Translations under genes and position numbers: made by a program
In this document: piece by piece, positions 2,056 through 11,526 of the stretch
How the letters are laid out: every line of letters begins with the position of its first letter
Position numbering within the stretch: the stretch's first letter is position 1
Notes under the pieces: model-generated
What the model was told of the DNA's origin: nothing
The model's input: the letters and a program-made list of their open reading frames with translations, nothing else
Databases searched by the model: none
From: Aurantimonas aggregata
Lineage (GTDB): Bacteria; Pseudomonadota; Alphaproteobacteria; Rhizobiales; Rhizobiaceae
Reading direction: 5' to 3'
Assembly (NCBI RefSeq): GCF_010500835.1
Contig: NZ_JAAAMJ010000023.1
Location: 1-43,846 of the forward strand
Length of the DNA stretch: 43,846 nucleotides

Positions 2056-2885
2056 AGCTCCGAGAGTAGTCGGAACCTGACGGCTAGCCAGATGGCGGGC
2101 ATTTCTCTGTGCTCAATGTTGGTTTCAGCTCCAGCCACGCGCCGGGCGTCACTTCGGTGCCCTGGTTAGGGGCCGACCTCAACGCGAGGGGAGGCCCTGA
2201 CTCGTCGACTAGATGCTGCTCTTGGAAATGATTTCTGGCTTCGAGAGCCAAGACGCCGAAGCGTGCTTCCAAAGCTTCGTTTGGTTGAACTCACCGAAGA
2301 CTGATCGCATGGGGCAAGCTTGAGTGGCCGCGATCAGCGCACTTCGGGGGGATTTCAAGTGTCCGGGCTTGCTCGGCGCGGTGAGGGAGCCCTTCATTAA
2401 CCATATCGGCGCCGAGTTCCTGCCAGCGCCTTGCGATCGGTGGTTGAAGGGCTCAGTTTCCGTTTTGTGCTCGGGATCACCCTGAGCCGACACGAGACGG
2501 CCCCCGCTGGTGTTTGCCGCACCGAACGAGGGCCTGACCCGCAACCTGCTGAGAGGTCTTGGGCTATGACGAGCCATAATCACTTCGTCCCTTCGAGGAA
2601 AGCTTCGGAAACGGCGACTGCTGGGCTGATAGGATCGAGCGGACCCTGCCGCGTGATGTCGCGGCTGTCGCAGGCGCCCCGCGCTTAACGAGCGCCGGAC
2701 GCCAGTCGCTTTCCGTTTCCAATCGAGATGATCACCAACCGCTGACGAACAGGATGGGGCGAATGCCTTGTTCGTGCCGACGGTTCCCGTCCGCCTGACG
2801 CGCCTGATCCATCAGAGCGCGGACGGATGCTGACGGCCGCCGCCAACGGTTTGTGCCGATCATCTCCCTGTCCAAGGGACTTTCC
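2056..2885. other. 830-base stretch without a recognisable gene
   Basis: No open reading frame here has a recognisable product. Short frames of up to 124 codons exist on both strands but show no start site with ribosome binding site and no motif. The stretch holds the 15-bp word TGGAAATGATTTCTG (2223-2237), which recurs inverted near 10,638. It may be decayed coding DNA or a junction between integrase and cargo. Confidence 0.5.
2223..2237 (+). repeat. Copy 1 of the GGAAATGATTTC word
   Basis: TGGAAATGATTTCTG, 168 bases after the integrase stop codon. The same 15 bases occur on the opposite strand at 10631-10645, and a 13-base version at 12462-12474. The core GAAATNATTTC is a perfect palindrome around one central base. 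Confidence 0.7.
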
Positions 2886-3905
2886 ATGCTTCGTTCTTCG
2901 AAGGGTGTCGCCTCGGCTTTTGCCGAGCGTGCCCGCTATTCCTGCCGCATCCGGTTCTCCGATATCGAGACCGAACTCGACGCGCTGATCGAGAGAGCCG
3001 TTGCCGCCATCGTTGCCAGCACCCCGGCGCCGGACGCGATCCTCGGCGACTATGTCGGCCTCGCCTCGCTGATCCGCTCGGTCTCCTTCCACGAGGGCAA
3101 GCTGCTCGAACAGGCGATCATCGCCATCGGCCAGCACAACCCGGACCTCATCGTACTCTGGCAGTCGCTGCGGCTGCCGTTGACCCCGGCGGCGCTGGAG
3201 GCGATCGCCCTCAACCGCGGCGGCACGCTGAAGGGGCTGAGCTTCGACGCCGATGCCAAGACTCGGGCGAGCTACACGCCGGACCTCGTCGTGGTGAACC
3301 GCCGCTATCACAGCGCCACCATCCTCGACGTGAAGCGCTCGATCGCCTCCTATCTCGACACGCACCGCTTGGCCGAACTGAAGACCAAGATGTTGGCCGC
3401 GTCGTTGATCCTGCCCGACTGGCTCTACAAGGAGCACAAGCGGCTGATGATCGACACCGTCGGCATCGCCATCGTCGACGGGGCGAGTGCACCCAGCGAC
3501 CAGGAGAACGGCATCTGGGCGATGACCGAGATCGACGATCTGCTGGAGATCGATGGCGCGGCAGAGGCGATGACGGAACTGCGCCGCCGCTTCGGCGAGA
3601 AGATCCGCGCGCTGCTTGCTGCCGAGGCTCATCGGCTGGTCGAGGCGAATGTCGATAAGGCCCAGCGCACGCGTCCAACTTGCCCTGAGAGGAGCGACTC
3701 GTTTCTCGGCGCCTTCGGCCAGCCCGCTCCGACGGCGTTCGCTCCGGAGGGCCATGAAGACGACGCCGAGGACGCCGCGCGCTCCAGCCCTGCGTCCGGC
3801 GGCGCCATTCCGGCCAGCCGCACCGGAAATAATTTCCGATCCGCCGCACCGCACATACCGCGGACGATCCGCGTCGGCTTCGCCAGAGCACGCCTCGACG
3901 GCTGA
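2886..3905 (+). CDS. Predicted PD-(D/E)XK nuclease-fold protein
   Basis: A 339-residue protein I cannot assign to a named family. Residues 132-150 read PDLVVVN..., ending ILDVK, giving Asp133, then Asp148-Val-Lys150. This is the spacing and hydrophobic setting of the PD-(D/E)XK nuclease active site, with conserved-looking glutamates earlier (FHEGKLLEQ). The nuclease call is inference from this motif; no partner methylase is present. The last ~60 residues are low-complexity and may be disordered. ATG 2886 is supported by AAGGGA six bases upstream. It is the first gene of a plus-strand series that continues with the AAA+/M41 protease, so it may act with it in element maintenance or defence. Confidence 0.6.
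   Translation: MLRSSKGVASAFAERARYSCRIRFSDIETELDALIERAVAAIVASTPAPDAILGDYVGLASLIRSVSFHEGKLLEQAIIAIGQHNPDLIVLWQSLRLPLTPAALEAIALNRGGTLKGLSFDADAKTRASYTPDLVVVNRRYHSATILDVKRSIASYLDTHRLAELKTKMLAASLILPDWLYKEHKRLMIDTVGIAIVDGASAPSDQENGIWAMTEIDDLLEIDGAAEAMTELRRRFGEKIRALLAAEAHRLVEANVDKAQRTRPTCPERSDSFLGAFGQPAPTAFAPEGHEDDAEDAARSSPASGGAIPASRTGNNFRSAAPHIPRTIRVGFARARLDG
3825..3837. repeat. Variant copy of the GGAAATNATTTC palindrome
   Basis: GGAAATAATTTCC is a perfect 13-base palindrome around a central A, inside the 3' low-complexity end of the PD-(D/E)XK-like gene. It differs from the other copies only at the centre. Confidence 0.5.
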
Positions 3906-4017
3906 CCTCGCCACGGCCTGATCCCCATCGATCCCCGGCCGCAGCGTCATCCAACCTCAGATCCAATCATCGCCGCAGCCGCCGAGAGCCGGCGCAGCGC
4001 ACGGGAAAGCTACGTCC

Positions 4018-4488
4018 ATGAACCAGACCACATCGACCTCGACACCGCAGATTGTCCCCCTATCGATGCGCCCGCCGATCCCGACGAAGCTCGCAGGCAG
4101 CACTGCCTTGACATCCGTCGTCGCCGTCGGTTCGATGCCGCCGATCCAGGCCATCCAGGCCATCGAGACGATTGCCCCAGCGACTCTGGCGGCGGACGCC
4201 ATCGCGCCGACCCTCGTGCCGGAGGTCGCCACCTCGCCGGACGATCGCGAGGACACGGCCTTGCTGGTTGGCCTCAGCCTCTGGACCGCCCGCCAGCACG
4301 AGCGCTACCTCGCCCGGGCCCAGGCGGCGGACAATAGCGTCGCTCTGCACCGCTACCCGACCGTACTCGTCGACGCGCTGCGCCGTCACGCCGATGCCGG
4401 TGACCCCACCTGCCGTTTGGTCCTCGACTGGCTCCTCGCCAAGGGCATCGCCGAGACCGGAAGCACCGCGAGCGAGGGAGCCGTCTGA
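4018..4488 (+). CDS. Small protein coupled to the AAA+/M41 protease
   Basis: A 156-residue protein with no recognised family. The first ~75 residues are rich in Pro, Ala, Thr and Ile and probably disordered; residues about 80-150 (DREDTALLVGLSLWTARQHE onward) look like an alpha-helical domain. Its TGA shares a base with the ATG of the next gene (TGATG at 4486-4490), so the two are probably translationally coupled and the product may be a partner or substrate adaptor of the protease. A GGAAAG ribosome binding site lies about ten bases before ATG 4018. Confidence 0.7.
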   Translation: MNQTTSTSTPQIVPLSMRPPIPTKLAGSTALTSVVAVGSMPPIQAIQAIETIAPATLAADAIAPTLVPEVATSPDDREDTALLVGLSLWTARQHERYLARAQAADNSVALHRYPTVLVDALRRHADAGDPTCRLVLDWLLAKGIAETGSTASEGAV

Positions 4489-6986
4489 TGGCTCTCCCCA
4501 AACGCCCGCGCACCAAGCTCCGACTGGACATCCAGCCGGCAGAGCCGGCACCCGCCATCGACGCCACCAGCGGCGAGCACAAGGTCGCCGAGAGCGTTGC
4601 TACCCTGCTGCTCATCGAGCAGGCCCTGCGACGGAACGACATGGATGTCGGACACCTCGTCGACCGCTTCGATCGTCCCGGATCGGTGGTGCTGCTGCTC
4701 GCCCGCGTCGAGGGCTTTGCCGCCGCGGCGCTGCGGGTGCTGGAGGCGGGATCGATCCTGCCCGGTCGCACGCAGACGCTGGACGTCGACTACGTGAAGC
4801 CCGGCGGCTATGCGCGTTTTGCCGACGATGAGGACATCCGCTGGCGCATCGTCACGATGATCGCCGGAGAGCATGACAGCAGGCCGGACGTCGAAGCCGA
4901 CCCCCTCATTCGCATTCACATCACCCACGTCGCCCGCACGCCGTATCCGCTGCTGGTCATCGCCGAGGCGCCGCCGATCCCGTCACTGCTGGCGCTTGCC
5001 GCCGACGTGGTGCTCGACGGCGGCAGCCTCGACGCCGACATCATCGCGGAGACGGCAGCGCGCGTTGTCGGCCATGATCCCGATGCGGTCCGCTCGGTGC
5101 TTGCAGCCGCATTGTTCGACCCACGGCGGCTGTCGGTGGCCGATCTCTCGGTGGCAATCCGCCCCGGCGTGCCGGTCGACCGGATGATCGCCATGCTGAC
5201 GCACCTGGCATCAGGTCCCGGGGAGGATGACGAAGGCGACGCGTCGGGTTCCTCCTCCACGCCGACATTGTCAGAGTTCCTGCTGCGATCGAAAGGCGAC
5301 AGCGACTGGGACCGGCGCGTCGAGAGCCTGCCTGCCGACGCCAAGGGTCGCCACCATCGCAAGTCCGGCACCGGGTCTCAGCGACCGGGCAAGTCGGGCA
5401 ATAAGGAAGCCGCCTCCAAAAGCGGGTCGGAGGTGATCCTGCCGGAGGCGTCGGGCGATCCCTTCCGGCTGAGTGTCGAGACACTGGCAGGCTTCGGTGA
5501 GGCGCGCGGCTGGGCGCTCGACCTCAAGGCCGATCTGGCGCTGTGGCGGGCGGGCAGCCTGCCATGGGACCAGATCAGCTCGCGGCTGCTGCTGTCGGGC
5601 CCGCCCGGCACGGGCAAGACCACCTATGCCAAGGCGCTCTGCAACAGCCTCGACCTGCCCCTTCACGTCTCGTCGGTGTCTACCTGGCTGGAGGCGAGCT
5701 ATCTCGGCAACGTCATCGCGCGGATGAACGCCGCCTTCGCGGAAGCCCGGCAGAACGCCCCGTCGATCCTGTTCATCGACGAGTGCGATGGCATCGGCAA
5801 GCGACAGCCACAGGACCGGGACTTTGCCGACTACTGGAACGCCCTTGTCAATAAGCTGCTGGAACTGCTGGATGGCGCGGCGAAGGCGGAAGGGGTGATC
5901 ATCGTCGGCGCGACGAACCGACCGGAGGCGATGGACGAGGCGCTCAAGCGCTCCGGCCGCTGGGAGAAGCAGATCGCCATCCCGATGCCCGACCGAGAGG
6001 CGCTCAAGGGGATCCTGGCGCATCACGTCGGACCCGAACTCGCTGGCCTTGTCGCGGCCGCACATCCCGACGCACCGATGCCGCACCAGCGGGAGCCGGT
6101 CGCCGCCGTGCTGACACAGCTTGCTCGGCAGGCGAACGGCCGCAGCGGCGCCGATATCGAGCGGCTGGTGCGCGAGGCGCGCGGCAAGGCCCGCCGCGAG
6201 GGTCGCGGCCTCACCCATGCCGACCTGACGGCGCGGCTTGCGAATGGTCGTCCGGCCCGGCCGCAGGACCTGCGCTATCGCATGGCCGTCCATGAGGCGG
6301 GCCACGCCGTGGTCCGCCGGGCGCTGAATGTCGGCAGCGAGCTCAGCCTGTCGATCGAGGCGGCCGAGGGCGGCTATGCGGAATCGATGCTCGACCTGAA
6401 TGTCGTCCAGTCCGAGGCGTGGGTCATGGCGATCATCGCCGCCTACCTTGCCGGACGTGCCGCCGAGACGATGGTGTTCGGCAACGTCACTGTCGGCTCG
6501 GGCGGCGAACGCACGAGCGATCTCGCCAGTGCCACACGGCTCGCGCTGTCGCTGGAGATCGAGCTCGGCTTCGGAGAGCGACCGCTACTGCACCGTCCGA
6601 TGCAGCATGCCGAACTCCTGCTGCTGCGCGACGACCCGCTGAGCCATGCCGTTCATGCCCGGCTGGAGGCGGCACTGGCTCTGGCCACCCGCACGCTCGA
6701 GGCCGACCGCGCCATGCTGCTGCTGTTGGCCGACGCGCTGTGCGCAGCGGGCAGCATGGATACGGCCGAGGTCGAAGCCGTCCTCGCAGCCGGTGACGGC
6801 GGTGCTTCAGCGGATGCCACGGCGGAGGCGAGGTCGGGAGCGAAGGCGAAGGGCGCGGCAACGGCGGTGCCAAAGGTGGACCGTCCGACAGCGTCTGCCG
6901 GACGCACGACGTCGAACTGTGCCCCCGCCGATCGCAGGCTCGCCAACGGGGCATCCCAGGCCAAGCCGCCCGAGCCGCCGAGCTGA
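4488..6986 (+). CDS. Soluble FtsH-like AAA+ ATPase / M41 zinc metalloprotease
   Basis: An 832-residue ATP-dependent protease architecture. The Walker A motif is GPPGTGKT (Lys377), Walker B is ILFIDE (Asp431, Glu432), and the second region of homology is near LKRSGRWEKQ. The peptidase zinc motif is HEAGH (His602, Glu603, His606), with Asp678 in SDLASATRLA placed as the third ligand. Unlike FtsH it has no N-terminal membrane helices; instead there is a ~330-residue extension with no recognised fold, probably for substrate choice. The last ~60 residues are low-complexity. It overlaps the preceding gene by one base. All catalytic residues are intact, so it is likely active. Its substrate is unknown; by context it may act on proteins of the mobile element or its rivals. 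Confidence 0.88.
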   Translation: MALPKRPRTKLRLDIQPAEPAPAIDATSGEHKVAESVATLLLIEQALRRNDMDVGHLVDRFDRPGSVVLLLARVEGFAAAALRVLEAGSILPGRTQTLDVDYVKPGGYARFADDEDIRWRIVTMIAGEHDSRPDVEADPLIRIHITHVARTPYPLLVIAEAPPIPSLLALAADVVLDGGSLDADIIAETAARVVGHDPDAVRSVLAAALFDPRRLSVADLSVAIRPGVPVDRMIAMLTHLASGPGEDDEGDASGSSSTPTLSEFLLRSKGDSDWDRRVESLPADAKGRHHRKSGTGSQRPGKSGNKEAASKSGSEVILPEASGDPFRLSVETLAGFGEARGWALDLKADLALWRAGSLPWDQISSRLLLSGPPGTGKTTYAKALCNSLDLPLHVSSVSTWLEASYLGNVIARMNAAFAEARQNAPSILFIDECDGIGKRQPQDRDFADYWNALVNKLLELLDGAAKAEGVIIVGATNRPEAMDEALKRSGRWEKQIAIPMPDREALKGILAHHVGPELAGLVAAAHPDAPMPHQREPVAAVLTQLARQANGRSGADIERLVREARGKARREGRGLTHADLTARLANGRPARPQDLRYRMAVHEAGHAVVRRALNVGSELSLSIEAAEGGYAESMLDLNVVQSEAWVMAIIAAYLAGRAAETMVFGNVTVGSGGERTSDLASATRLALSLEIELGFGERPLLHRPMQHAELLLLRDDPLSHAVHARLEAALALATRTLEADRAMLLLLADALCAAGSMDTAEVEAVLAAGDGGASADATAEARSGAKAKGAATAVPKVDRPTASAGRTTSNCAPADRRLANGASQAKPPEPPS

Positions 6987-7086
6987 GGTCGGCACCGACT
7001 GGCGTCGACCAACACGCATCCACCTGCCGAGACCCCATCCCACCACAACGCAGCCACCTGCGCCGCGAACGAAGGATCGTGCCCGC

Positions 7087-7413
7087 ATGAGCATCATCAT
7101 CCTGCCGAACGGCACCGCCTTGCATATGGACAAGGAACTGCACCTGCTGACCGAGCTTCAGCGTGATATTGCCCGCATCGACGACGGCTGGCACCCCAGC
7201 GAGAGGGATCTGGCTGACGCGCCGGTCCTCGAGCACTGGTCGCTCGGCATGCGCATGCAGCCCTGCTTGACGGGCGAAGTGTACGGCCACCCGAGGCTCC
7301 GCAGCGGCGGAAAGTCCGTTACCTCGCAGCTCCACGTGTTTGCGCCGCATCACGGTTACGCCCGCACCCTCAGCCGCTTCTACCGCCTCGGCCCTCCTGC
7401 AACCGACGGCTGA
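7087..7413 (+). CDS. DUF6634-like protein
   Basis: A 108-residue protein. The pattern ELQRDIARIDDGWHPSERDL, then ADAPVLEHW, then GHPRLRSGG and ARTLSRFYRLG resembles the DUF6634 family as I remember it, small proteins of unknown function on alphaproteobacterial plasmids and islands. ATG 7087 is chosen because similarity begins there, although the frame is open far upstream across the protease gene. It follows the protease on the same strand with a 100-base gap, and precedes the repeat region. Confidence 0.65.
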   Translation: MSIIILPNGTALHMDKELHLLTELQRDIARIDDGWHPSERDLADAPVLEHWSLGMRMQPCLTGEVYGHPRLRSGGKSVTSQLHVFAPHHGYARTLSRFYRLGPPATDG

Positions 7414-7663
7414 GGTCGGGTGCTGCGCCGACCGATCGGTAGCCTCGGCTACGCCGACCACGGTGGGCTGTCAGCCGAGACCGTCGCGAAGTACCGGACG
7501 GCGGCGTCATCTCAATGCGGTGGATCCCGGATGCGTTGTCCTCGCATCGTTGCGCTGCCATCCGAGCCATTGAGCCGCCGTAGGAACGGCCTCAGCGCCG
7601 CGATCCTGATCAACGTGCCGTAACCGATCGCACGTCCCCGGCAACGCAATCCAGGTCAGCTCA

Positions 7664-7760
7664 AATTGCGCATTCCTGTTGCGGAGCTCTGTATCCTCGT
7701 TGCGAGCCGCACGGCAGCGTTGCGAATGTCTGGACGTCCGATTCAGCGCTGCCGAGGCCG
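7664..7760 (+). repeat. Repeat array A, 21-bp spacing
   Basis: Units start at 7678 (GTTGCGGAGCTCTG), 7699 (GTTGCGAGC), 7719 (GTTGCGAATGTCTGG) and 7740 (GATTCAGCGCT), i.e. spacings of 21, 20 and 21. A half unit ATTGCGCATT lies 13 bases before the first. The whole order, including the half unit, is repeated in array B 178 bases downstream. Confidence 0.7.
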
Positions 7761-7841
7761 CCTGGGCCGTGGGCAGCCGAACGCGTTTCCCTTCGACTCA
7801 AAGTCCCTAAACGTCAGGGCGACCTGAGATGACGTGAGACA

Positions 7842-7982
7842 AGTTACGCATTGCCGATTCAAAGCTCTGGACCAGCGTTGCAAGGCTCCAGTTGCGCGTT
7901 GCGAACGTCTGGTTAGGCGTGTCGAAGGTGGGGGTTATCGTTGCGAAGCTCGACACGGGGGATTCGCGACCAAACGTCGTTT
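7842..7982 (+). repeat. Repeat array B, exact 21-bp spacing
   Basis: Units start at 7856 (GATTCAAAGCTCTGG), 7877 (GTTGCAAGGCTCC), 7898 (GTTGCGAACGTCTGG), 7919 (GTGTCGAAGGTGG), 7940 (GTTGCGAAGCTCG) and 7961 (GATTCGCGACC), each exactly 21 bases on. A half unit GTTACGCATT lies 13 bases before the first, as in array A. The approximate consensus is GTTGCGAAGCTCTGG. A 21-bp pitch is two helical turns, putting all units on one face of the DNA, as in iterons and partition sites. Confidence 0.75.
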
Positions 7983-8438
7983 GCACGTGCCTATGCGGAC
8001 ACGCCGCGGCCAGTCTGTCTGACGCCGACCGCAAAACGTTTTTGAGCGGGCCAGTTGCGGCGGCCGCGCCAATGCATGGCGACGACTTTACTGGGCTGAT
8101 CACCGACCCAGGACGACTTCCAGCGGCGGCGCACGGCTCGCACCTGCCTGACGTGGACCTCGCGTCAAGGGTGGCGGGCAGCTCACGAAGACCATCAGCT
8201 CCAGTTTAACTCGCCGCAAATAAATCTCCGGAAAGTAGAAACGGACCTCTATCATGCGATGCGCGAACTAAATCTCTCTATGGGACGGAATATGCCTGAG
8301 TTAATTCACTGTAAAAACAAGTATTGACGAATGAAAGCTCTGACGCCGCCAAATGCAACTCGCTGGATTATGACATAAGAACTGTGCTAATGGTTATGTG
8401 TTGCTGCCAATCACGGCTGCGCAACATCAGGAGAGACC

Positions 8439-9923
8439 ATGACGACCAACGACGACATGCCGGAGAGCTTCCGTGGCGGCCAGGCGCCCGAGGAGAACCC
8501 CGTCCCCGCGAGCGTGCCCTTGCGCGCGGACGCGGACGACGCGGGCGACGCGGGCGCACAGGAGAAGAAGCCGCGGGGCAAGCCGAAGGCGGCCAAGACC
8601 GCCAAGGGCGGGAAGGCGGCGGAGACCGGAAAGGCGACTGTGGCGGCGAAGGCCGAGAGGGTGCGCAGGGAGCCGAAGGAGAAGAAGGAGAGCGGCCGGA
8701 GGCAGGCGAAGGAGAAGTTCGACATCACCTCGCTCCCGGTCGAGCGGCAGGCGAAGGTGATGAAGGGCATCGAGCGGGTGAACGTGCTCGGCCGCAAGAC
8801 CACCGAGAACATGCTCGACCTCGGCGAGACGGTGAACGACCTCGCCGTGGAGGTCGACAACCCCAACCACTGGCGGGACATCATCGAGACCAGCACCAGC
8901 TACGACTACAAGACGGCCGAGAACTGGCTGAAGGTGCACAACAAGTTCGCGTCCCGTCGGGCCGAGATCCTCCGGTGCAGCGTGACGCCGACCGTCCTCA
9001 TCGCCCTGCTCCCGGCGACCGACGAGCAGGTCGACACGGTGCTGGCATCCTTCGACGCGGGCAAGCGCCTCAAGGTGCGCGAGGTCAACGCCCTCGTCCG
9101 CGCCGGGTTGGAGAGCGTCGCCGCCTCGACTGCCCGCGGCGGGTCAAAGGGCCTGCGCAGCCTCGGCGCCGCCAGGCTGGGGCGCCAGCAGAAGACCGTC
9201 ACGGCCGCGCTGAAGGCGATCCGGCAGATGGTCGCCTCGGCGCTCGAGGCCGCCGCAACGAAGCGGCTGGAGAAGGGCAAGCTCGTCAAGGACGTCCTGC
9301 CGGTCGCCCGAGTGGCCCACGCCGAGCTGACCGAGATGGTCTGCGACATCGACCCGCGTTCGCTGTCGGGCAGCGCGTCGCTGCGGCACCTGCCGGTGGA
9401 GGACGAAGCCTGGGCGGAAGTCCTCGAACTCCTCGACACCATGACGACCGCGGAGGACTGGCCGGAGGCGACCGGGCTGAAGGCGTGGCTCAGCGGCAAG
9501 GTCATGAGCTTGCTCGCCTTCGCGCTCGACGGCGTCGAGAGCGGCACGGCCGTCGACGAGGCGATGGTGGAGACCACCGAGACCGAAGCGGCGGCTGAGG
9601 GGGCTTCGACCGGTGCGGTCGAGGTTGCCGTGGCCACGGACGTCGTGACAACGGCCGACGGCGGGTCGACGGACACGCCGATGAAGGAGGGGCCGACGTC
9701 GGATGTCGCCGAGGGCTCGACCAACGTCACCCCCCTGGCGTCGGCCGACAAGACCGCGGTGCCGAAAACGGCAGCGCAGCCGAACCCGGCCGCAGGGAAG
9801 GCCGGGTCGGCGCCCGCGACGATCCACGCGTTCCGCGGCAAGCGGCCCGGCGCGATCATCCCGGGCTTTCTGGCAGCCGAGACGCCCGGCGGCGCACCCG
9901 GCAAGCCCGACAACGCGGTCTGA
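8439..9923 (+). CDS. Predicted DNA-binding protein (DUF3102-like core)
   Basis: A 494-residue protein with a Lys/Ala-rich basic N-terminal tail (~90 residues), a central folded part and an acidic, Thr/Ala-rich C-terminal tail. The central segment LGETVNDLAVEV... NHWRDIIETSTSYDYKTAENWLKVHNKF resembles DUF3102-type modules of phage and plasmid proteins, which look like helix-turn-helix DNA binders; the following ~100 residues are helical. The start is firm: AGGAGA lies five bases before the ATG. Directly upstream are the 21-bp repeats, the obvious candidate target. A role in replication, partition or transcription of the element is inferred from this; it lacks the ParB signature motifs. Confidence 0.6.
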   Translation: MTTNDDMPESFRGGQAPEENPVPASVPLRADADDAGDAGAQEKKPRGKPKAAKTAKGGKAAETGKATVAAKAERVRREPKEKKESGRRQAKEKFDITSLPVERQAKVMKGIERVNVLGRKTTENMLDLGETVNDLAVEVDNPNHWRDIIETSTSYDYKTAENWLKVHNKFASRRAEILRCSVTPTVLIALLPATDEQVDTVLASFDAGKRLKVREVNALVRAGLESVAASTARGGSKGLRSLGAARLGRQQKTVTAALKAIRQMVASALEAAATKRLEKGKLVKDVLPVARVAHAELTEMVCDIDPRSLSGSASLRHLPVEDEAWAEVLELLDTMTTAEDWPEATGLKAWLSGKVMSLLAFALDGVESGTAVDEAMVETTETEAAAEGASTGAVEVAVATDVVTTADGGSTDTPMKEGPTSDVAEGSTNVTPLASADKTAVPKTAAQPNPAAGKAGSAPATIHAFRGKRPGAIIPGFLAAETPGGAPGKPDNAV

Positions 9924-10010
9924 TCTTCGTCATTCGACCATCGGGCCTCGCCGTCGCCGCACGGCGGGGCTCCGGACCCCTTCACCGATCCAACCTCGCA
10001 AGGCAGTCCT

Positions 10011-10409
10011 ATGACCGATCTGACATCGACACCGTCCCGGAAGCCGAAGCCGCCGAAGCGCGCCAAGGTCGACAGCGTGGCGCCAACGCCGCGTTCAGTG
10101 CGGCTTCAGCGCCAGGCCGAGTACCAGCGGGCCTATCGCGCCGAGCAGAAGCGCAGGCGGATCCCTTCGCGCGACGACGCGGCCCGGGTTGCCTTCCACT
10201 GGTTCGTCACCCTCATGTCGGACAAGGGCGACGAGGTCGGGCTTGCCAATATCCATCGCGAGATCGTTCGGCGCCTGGTCGAGCTCGGCTTCGACGAGGG
10301 AGGCGCCGATCGTCGGGTCAGTGATCTGTTCGAGCGCTATGAGAATGGCTGGACCTTCCAGGCGAAGCCGCATTTGCGCTCGGCGCCCAAGTCGGACCCG
10401 CTGTCCTGA
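10011..10409 (+). CDS. Small basic protein of unknown function
   Basis: A 132-residue protein, not recognised. The N-terminal half is very rich in Lys, Arg and Pro (PSRKPKPPKRAK; YRAEQKRRR), typical of nucleic acid contact; residues about 58-120 (DDAARVAFHWFVTLM to SDLFERYENGW) look like a compact helical domain. It follows the DUF3102-like gene by 87 bases on the same strand and probably belongs to the same transcription unit. The ATG at 10011 is preceded by a weak AAGGCAG. Confidence 0.65.
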   Translation: MTDLTSTPSRKPKPPKRAKVDSVAPTPRSVRLQRQAEYQRAYRAEQKRRRIPSRDDAARVAFHWFVTLMSDKGDEVGLANIHREIVRRLVELGFDEGGADRRVSDLFERYENGWTFQAKPHLRSAPKSDPLS

Positions 10410-10584
10410 CCGGGCACGACGGCCACTTCGAAACGGCATCAGCCGCCTGTGGTCCATCCACCCGGTTCACGCCGCCCAGCACGAGGTCAAGCTGTTTATG
10501 GATGGCAGTTGCCGAACAACCCCGGATGCCTAGAGGGGCAAACGCCCCCATAACTTCAGCAAACGCCGTTTGCCGTTGCAACGA

Positions 10585-11394
10585 TCATTCAGACGCCGCA
10601 GCCGCCGTTCGCTCGGCATCGACCGGATCGCAGAAATCATTTCCAGGGGCTGCCTTCAGACCAGTCGGCGATCCGGGTGAGACCGGCATCGACGCCACCC
10701 ACACCGGCTCGCACCGGAACGTCCCGACGAAGCCGCGCTCGCCGGCCTGACTGATCCGCAGCGTTCGGCTGGCCGGCACCCGCACGAGCCAGCCGAGCGC
10801 GAGCGAGCGGTCGAGGAGTGCAGCGCCGAGTTTGCCGGCCAGATGCGCGCGGCGCTCGCTCCAGTCGAGGCAGGTTCGGCAGAGCGGCCGCTTGCTGGCG
10901 TGGAGCGCGCCGACATCGATGCCGAAGTCCGAGAGGAAGCTGCGGCCGTCGTCGGAGACGATGCCGACGCCGTCCTCGATTTGGATGAGGCCTTGCCCCT
11001 GGAGCGCGTCGGCGATGGCGACGCCGAGCCGGCCCGCCAGATGATCGTAGCAGGAGCGCGCCAGCCGCATCGCCGCATCGCGAGGGCCGCGCACGCGGGA
11101 TGATGTGGCACCGCTGGATAGCGCCATCAGCCCTTCCAGCGCCTCGGCGATTTGCGGCGATGCCAAGCGGAAGTATCGGTGCCGTCCCTGCCGCTCGACG
11201 GCGACAAGGCCGCCGTCCCGCAGCCTGGAGAGATGGCCGCTGGCCGTCTGCGGCGTCACGCCGGCATAAGCGGCCAGTTCCCCGGCGGTCAGCGCCTCGC
11301 CGCCCATCAGCGCCGACAGCATGTTGGCGCGGGCGGGATCGCCCATCAGGAAGGCGTTTGCGGCAATGCCGCTGCCGGTCGGTGGATCGATCAT
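10585..11394 (-). CDS. ArsR-type winged-helix transcriptional repressor
   Basis: A 269-residue regulator. The N-terminal third is an ArsR winged helix: LMGDPARANMLSALMGG, then ELAAYAGVTPQTASGHLSRL (recognition helix) and GLVAVERQGRHRYFRL (wing). The longer C-terminal part has CRTCLDWSERRAHLAGKLGAAL, as in the larger ArsR-family proteins found next to transporters. It is divergent from an EamA-type exporter, with a perfect palindrome between them, so it probably represses both. The last ~20 residues (after GLKAAPGNDF) read through the GGAAATGATTTC word and may be an acquired tail. The start is ATG 11394; the frame is open upstream to 11490. Confidence 0.82.
   Translation of the reverse strand: MIDPPTGSGIAANAFLMGDPARANMLSALMGGEALTAGELAAYAGVTPQTASGHLSRLRDGGLVAVERQGRHRYFRLASPQIAEALEGLMALSSGATSSRVRGPRDAAMRLARSCYDHLAGRLGVAIADALQGQGLIQIEDGVGIVSDDGRSFLSDFGIDVGALHASKRPLCRTCLDWSERRAHLAGKLGAALLDRSLALGWLVRVPASRTLRISQAGERGFVGTFRCEPVWVASMPVSPGSPTGLKAAPGNDFCDPVDAERTAAAASE
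10631..10645 (-). repeat. Copy 2 of the GGAAATGATTTC word, inverted
   Basis: Reading on the minus strand, TGGAAATGATTTCTG is identical in all 15 bases to the copy at 2223-2237. It lies inside the 3' end of the arsR-type gene, 222 bases after the last gene of the left block. Confidence 0.7.
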
Positions 11395-11438
11395 GAAAGG
11401 CAGGATAGGTGGCGCGGCGCGGCTTGTCAGGAGGCGAC

Positions 11439-11458
11439 GCTTCGGTGAATACCGAAGC
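11439..11458. promoter_or_regulatory. Probable ArsR operator
   Basis: GCTTCGGTGAATACCGAAGC is a perfect 8+4+8 inverted repeat in the divergent gap between the ArsR-type repressor (ATG 11394) and the EamA exporter (ATG 11527). Position and symmetry are those of a dimeric winged-helix repressor site covering both promoters. Confidence 0.75.
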
Positions 11459-11526
11459 ATCGGGACGGGTGACGTTATAGCTTCCGCCATCGTCGACCCT
11501 CCTCCTCAAGACCTGAAAGATTCCCC

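Follow-up and report, generated by a model that had tools for sequence, protein, structure and literature searches.

Iteron origins of replication carry direct repeats at about two helix turns beside a gene for a Rep initiator, whilst par2 of pB171 is a partition-system centromere with repeats on both sides of its genes. Tn7, Mu and IS21 (L1/L2 and R1/R2) have multi-site ends, with a site repeated directly close to the boundary of the element. The direct repeats of IS21 lie 23 bp apart (PMC10122671). The locus described here shares with iteron origins its direct repeats at about two helix turns but differs from them in that no Rep protein is recognised and that, on plasmids, it lies near independent replication genes. 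As in par2-type centromeres, a small protein gene has direct repeats on its upstream side and a further site on its downstream side; here, however, the downstream site is one or two units, no partition motor is recognised and in Aurantimonas the locus is apparently chromosomal. With multi-site transposon ends it has in common the several direct copies near a boundary and, in many loci, the inverted site, but no transposase is recognised, there is no significant terminal inverted repeat and the step is 21 bp, with slips to 20 bp in one array of the window (array A) and in Rhizobium TH2.

The window, that is, the stretch of DNA analysed, is the whole of contig C16 (43,846 bp) of the Aurantimonas aggregata genome, which totals 4.86 Mb. 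We regard as having an even chance of being right the reading that its two repeat arrays are a putative protein-binding element with several phased sites, belonging to a transferable gene cluster of the Rhizobiales, and most likely a platform for a protein of that cluster, with the family of the 8439–9923 gene as best candidate. The features concerned are these:

2387–10727, no strand: block common to the window and A. endophytica, with different flanks; the left limit against a third Aurantimonas (genome G007) is the same base
2685–3950, minus strand: divergent cluster gene, with homologues in the cluster of several relatives
4018–4488, plus strand: small cluster gene, with homologues ahead of the ATPase gene in some relatives
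4488–6986, plus strand: AAA+ ATPase fused to a peptidase M41-like (Zn protease) domain (PF00004, PF01434)
7087–7413, plus strand: DUF6634 gene (PF20339, E 2e-11)
7663–7677, plus strand: leader of array A, AAATTGCGCATTCCT, kept in three Aurantimonas
7678–7744, plus strand: array A, units at 7678, 7699, 7719 and 7740, core mostly of the CGTTGC form
7841–7854, plus strand: leader of array B, AAGTTACGCATTGC
7855–7965, plus strand: array B, five 21-bp units and a closing GATTC
7971–7983, no strand: palindrome CAAACGTCGTTTG, without mismatch, which ends array B at offset 11 of its last unit
8439–9923, plus strand: candidate array binder gene, of a family that co-occurs with arrays
10011–10409, plus strand: small conserved gene (132 aa; alignment A3), downstream of the arrays
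10544–10583, plus strand: right-end motif region, in the three parts that follow
10544–10557, plus strand: right-end motif GCCCCCATAACTTC
10559–10573: right-end palindrome GCAAACGCCGTTTGC
10578–10583: inverted core GCAACG

The original prediction had placed the unit starts of array A at 7678, 7699, 7719 and 7740 (steps of 21, 20 and 21) and those of array B every 21 bp from 7856 to 7961, and all of these were recovered. A ‘half unit’ that it had described 13 bp ahead of unit 1 likewise proved real and conserved; this is the leader. The ‘unit’ at 7961 is the closing half unit fused to the palindrome at 7971–7983. Amongst periods of 15–45 in the intergenic region of the window, 21 is the strongest (z 6.6). 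A 21-bp weight matrix built solely from six units of G007, another Aurantimonas species, had its four top matches on both window strands at 7856, 7877, 7898 and 7940, and a best three-unit sum of 60.4, whereas none of 40 first-order shuffles exceeded 14.6. The bare consensus is not over-represented (13 occurrences with up to three mismatches in the window, against 14.4 expected), so that the evidence for the arrays lies in their phasing and clustering, and GTTGCGAANNTCTGG occurs without mismatch in the whole genome only at 7719 and 7898. The array is missing from the output of Tandem Repeats Finder for the window. Both window arrays are real.

A pattern of two GTTGC-form units is present in three of eight Aurantimonas genomes, in all three with the array directly 3′ of the DUF6634 gene, whose assignment had been predicted and holds. 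The nearest relative having the locus is A. endophytica (G001), relative to which the 20-bp step of array A is the loss of one base. Between the two species, identity in 40-bp steps is 52–80% across 7414–7613 and reaches 93% in array A, 91% in the spacer and 89% in array B, where substitutions fall 6, 3 and 3 by codon position, that is, with no codon phase. From this profile and the lack of codon phase we conclude that the window arrays are constrained non-coding DNA. The intergenic stretch 8046–8193 is also 96% identical to A. endophytica, above the coding regions around it.

A 21-base period could in principle be heptad-coding or decayed coding sequence, and one frame of array B does read as stop-free heptads. 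This reading is scarcely credible: the one-base deletion in array A and the lack of codon-phase bias in array B speak against coding heptads, an in-frame TGA is seen by eye in G007, and outside Aurantimonas the 15 inter-core bases show no conservation. Searched as a peptide, the idealised heptad gave weak matches only, to plasmids and phages. An RNA element was rejected too, with nothing from Rfam in the window and folds of six arrays that are no better than shuffles (z −0.49 to 0.41).

The array at first appeared specific to the genus. A model (R1) of six Aurantimonas arrays, run on 385 genomes of the class, scored at best 21 bits outside the genus against 73–78 for its own arrays, and gave no match in the other DUF6634 loci examined, which span about 1.5 kb on each side (the arrays of genomes G045 and G876 lay farther out). 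A DNA search with the array in 199 genomes of the family found nothing convincing (best E per genome 6e-4). Genus specificity was dropped once a period scan of plasmid loci revealed a CGATTC form. Plasmid relatives of the neighbouring proteins led to 15 loci on 13 Rhizobiales plasmid records; the first six of these were scanned in their intergenic regions, where periods of 21 and 42 were strong in L290 and L294 and, in the remaining four, weak and among other periods. The general form of the unit is CGATTC at 21 bp.

A strict scan, requiring three or more cores with no more than one mismatch and permitting one weaker core inside, found 18 arrays in 14 of 18 loci (256,025 bases) and none in the reversed sequence. 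It missed the window and A. endophytica, whose core is mostly CGTTGC, and L293 (Rhizobium TH2), because of the 20-bp step there; L370 gave no array. Of the nine loci fetched after CGATTC had been recognised (L369–L377), eight carry an array. Arrays usually have 3–9 units, and many loci have two; on two NT-25 plasmids a gene for an IS256-family transposase lies between the two arrays (L291 11340–12536, L292 10859–12181).

We tallied units chosen by hand from the scan output and read in a 21-bp register: 36 rows, 34 arrays and 144 units, with window array A occupying three rows. The core is CGATTC in 91 units, CGTTGC in 20, TGATTC in 8 and CGTTTC in 6. Outside Aurantimonas (115 units) the six positions of the core carry the information, the remaining 15 being approximately random; the 29 Aurantimonas units, which are mutually related, are alike outside the core too. 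Leader-like sequence stands ahead of 28 of the 34 arrays by a loose pattern, and a palindrome near CAAACGNCGTTTG follows 16 of the 34 (up to three mismatches), mostly 11 bases into the last unit. CcrM methylates at GANTC, and the core contains GATTC, so that methylation state after replication would set occupancy if the arrays were a CcrM switch. GANTC is present in 105 of the 144 units, but in just 9 of the 29 from the window, G001 and G007, where the phasing is nonetheless kept, and we consider such a switch very improbable.

Beyond the plasmids, 347 genomes of the order were scanned for three CGATTC cores with at most one mismatch in total; 18 were positive, and the backward-pattern control gave none among the matches listed. 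Four of the 18 (G045, G077, G084 and G876) have a relative of the small gene at 10011–10409 downstream, on the same strand and within 2 kb, although the match is weak in two of them (E 5.5e-4 and 2.8e-4) and the gene of G084 seems to be broken; a leader is present in three of the four. The genomes compared are partly close relatives.

The other 14 positive genomes lack the small-gene family, and their CGATTC/TGATTC 21-bp arrays (L295–L313) are mostly leaderless, many being near YGATTCANNNNCTC. The surroundings look chromosomal at the 12 loci inspected, where the translations held no transposase, and are the same in L300 and L312, from different genera. The idea that these arrays are IS21 ends finds no support, IS21 repeats being 23 bp apart (PMC10122671). 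A viral origin was rejected as well: stretches of viral contigs matching the GTTGC form (37 and 5) or CGATTC three times (47), as far as listed, look coding or satellite-like and show no leader.

The product of the small gene is 99–132 aa across loci and belongs to no convincing Pfam or NCBIfam family. Arrays lie upstream of it in the same orientation, in most loci at a short distance; in NT-25 plasmid 2 and Peteryoungia the gap is 1.3–1.8 kb, with other annotated genes between, and in the window and in G045 and G876, which are of another family, a gene of the 8439–9923 family stands between arrays and small gene. At L291 there are two arrays, but we could find no small gene; four genomes (G840, G710, G862 and G922) have the small gene without arrays.

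At or just past the end of the small gene (L291, with no small gene found, excepted) lies a previously undescribed right-end motif, CCCCCCATTACTTC, in 24 of 26 loci with at most two mismatches, the exceptions being those of A. vaccinii and N. galegae VafX2. At two loci, L370 and G084, the motif sits inside an open frame that continues the small-gene match. In 920 kb of two Aurantimonas contigs the motif occurs in the two clusters and once elsewhere. It is mostly followed by the palindrome. The 26 loci contain 29 copies of the palindrome with at most one mismatch, whereas three first-order shuffle sets averaged 0.33. The counts of motif and palindrome are descriptive, since the loci that served to define the two are also those in which they were counted. 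Each of the two complete Aurantimonas contigs holds the palindrome exactly twice, once at the end of array B and once after the small gene, at 148 bp in A. endophytica and 264 bp in G007.

Outside this palindrome, 14 of 25 aligned rows carry an inverted core, GAATCG with at most one mismatch, at one identical offset. In the window and A. endophytica rows the sequence there is GCAACG, the inverse of their own core CGTTGC; this change from CGATTC to CGTTGC in both the arrays and the inverted site counted for our preferred explanation. Hoeflea has two GAATCG cores 21 bp apart, displaced, and no inverted core was found at the expected offset in G007, two array-bearing Shinella rows and G084. The four array-less genomes keep the CCCCCC motif and lack the inverted core. 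That arrays and inverted core tend to change or be lost together suggests that one protein serves both.

The right-end motif marks one end of a transferable cluster of 8–9 kb, the flanks of which differ between the three Aurantimonas. A pair of Shinella plasmids has a 9.4-kb common block (a 1-kb insertion in one of them) that ends six bases past the right-end palindrome. Its flanks show no similarity on either side (plus strand, E 1e-5), so that in this one pair the sharp ends and unrelated flanks of a mobile element are seen at both ends. The homology limit falls within 20 bp of the motif in four of nine pairs, stopping 12–20 bp past it in G840/G710, G840/G862 and G045/G876. It continues for 144 bp past the motif in window/A. 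endophytica, 386 bp in TCK/NT-25 and about 2 kb in G710/G862, and stops ahead of it in two G007 pairs. The motif is thus often, but not always, the boundary. Contig C22 of the window’s own genome (L401, about 5189–5586) carries a truncated copy of the cluster right end. This copy comprises the final 40 codons of the small gene, which match the A. endophytica query at 97.5% identity, together with the terminal part of the window gene 10585–11490.

Could the arrays and right-end motif serve a new kind of mobile element as its recombination sites, with a cluster protein that is, or recruits, the recombinase, after the manner of the multi-site ends of Mu, Tn7 and IS21? The sharp Shinella limits between unrelated flanks, the four close homology stops, the inverted core in 14 rows, the truncated second right end and the differing Aurantimonas flanks all speak for this. 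We nevertheless hold it to be doubtful. Pfam, NCBIfam and PADLOC recognise no transposase, integrase or recombinase in the six cluster proteins, and Pfam finds neither IstA nor IstB amongst the 29 window ORFs compared with it. The Shinella ends have no significant terminal inverted repeat (scores of 26.0 and 29.5; mean 22.8 and maximum 35.5 in 300 shuffles) and no clear target duplication, the Shinella array lies about 0.6 kb inside the end, and homology runs past the motif in the three pairs named above.

The original prediction had read the arrays as an iteron origin or partition centromere, and the gene content of the loci went against it. The arrangement of direct repeats ahead of a small gene and a site beyond it does resemble plasmid centromeres of the flanking type, and 15 of the loci fetched are on plasmid records. 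However, the clusters of A. endophytica and G007 are on contigs of 603 kb and 316 kb (G001:C5 and G007:C4) with three and eight tRNA genes and, in a search with one query set at E 1e-10, no RepA, RepB or RepC homologue; in three plasmid records replication or partition genes already lie near the cluster. Amongst the 29 window ORFs compared with Pfam there is no Rep or partition motor family, and so no recognised Rep initiator gene beside the repeats; Pfam likewise finds no ParA, ParM or TubZ in the six cluster proteins. An origin or centromere is accordingly improbable.

Which cluster protein might occupy the arrays? The only Pfam families matched by the six cluster proteins are AAA-type, M41 and DUF6634, and four of the proteins belong to no family recognised. 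The ATPase and Zn protease are annotated as two genes in several plasmid copies. Like the IetAS-type pairs, the fusion has an AAA+ domain that matches PADLOC IetA models (best E 6.9e-26), but the match is limited to that domain, the protease part is M41-like and all 24 NCBIfam matches, including an anti-phage ATPase model, are under the cut-offs. At the opposite side of the cluster there is a second conserved non-coding motif (2523–2547), located 3′ of the divergent gene (2685–3950); its 25 bases are identical in N. galegae (L294), with 22 of the 25 kept in NT-25 (L291) and 19 in Rhizobium TH2 (L293).

The 8439–9923 product matches nothing in Pfam, NCBIfam or PADLOC. It had been called DUF3102-like, which does not hold up: the window protein has no match to DUF3102 (PF11300), and the single weak match, in one of six family members (E 0.057), is below the Pfam cut-off. 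That arrays lie upstream of its homologues, and that it is their binder, had also been proposed, and here the evidence is divided. In a profile search of 20 genomes the family is present in six of seven with arrays and in none of 13 without a detected array (Fisher’s exact probability about 2e-4, calculated by hand, the genomes not being independent). Array absence rests on a pattern requiring a GTTGC unit in five of the 13 (G002–G006) and on the three-core CGATTC scan in the other eight. By profile, G007 has a diverged member. The family is found in seven of 12 array-bearing plasmid records (NGR234, a thirteenth, was left out) and not in the other five, nor in G084; strain NT-25 carries it on its other plasmid. 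The co-occurrence therefore stands and makes 8439–9923 a fair candidate for the binder, whose identity we infer from co-occurrence alone; its position does not stand, in that arrays are not regularly beside a gene of this type, their regular place being 5′ of a gene of the 10011–10409 type.

Compared with its A. endophytica counterpart, the 8439–9923 gene of the window has a dN/dS of 0.75 with a dS of 0.11, against dN/dS of 0.09–0.29 and dS of 0.24–0.36 for three neighbours, and in codons 121–180 its dN (0.152) exceeds its dS (0.097), a pattern of recombination or diversifying selection.

On the platform reading, which we prefer, the period has a simple meaning: 21 bp is two helix turns, placing the cores on one face of the DNA. 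One DNA-binding protein of the cluster, most likely of the 8439–9923 family, would fill the sites cooperatively, and the bound protein could bridge array and inverted core, with the small gene looped out. Such a complex would in the first place control the small gene, in the window as part of an operon at 8439–10409. Since the complex would form at a cluster boundary, it may also take part in moving the cluster; its disassembly could, speculatively, be the work of the AAA+ ATPase and the Zn-protease domain fused to it. Rather doubtful, in our estimate, is the proposal of a new mobile-element family without a recognisable recombinase, in which array, AAACGNCGTTTGC palindromes and CCCCCCATTACTTC would form a right-end recombination complex built by the 8439–9923 and 10011–10409 families and dismantled by the AAA+ Zn protease. 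If this were true, exact junctions would be expected at GCAAACGNCGTTTGC of the right-end motif.

The repeat appears to be a recurring element for which we found no matching published description. Titles and abstract openings in the open-licence literature, searched amongst other things for the string CCCCCCATTACT, gave none, and no paper on DUF6634 was found there; being confined to that literature, the search is weak evidence of novelty.

The locus now has a consensus that can be searched for: on the array side a leader, repeated CGATTC-N15 and a palindrome, and on the far side CCCCCCATTACTTC-nn-AAACGNCGTTTGC-N4-GAATCG. It marks an end of an accessory cluster that these soil bacteria carry on Rhizobiales plasmids and chromosomes, and for two protein families it provides a DNA target that can be tested. 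Should the ends prove to be recombination sites, they would point to movement of DNA that present annotation misses.
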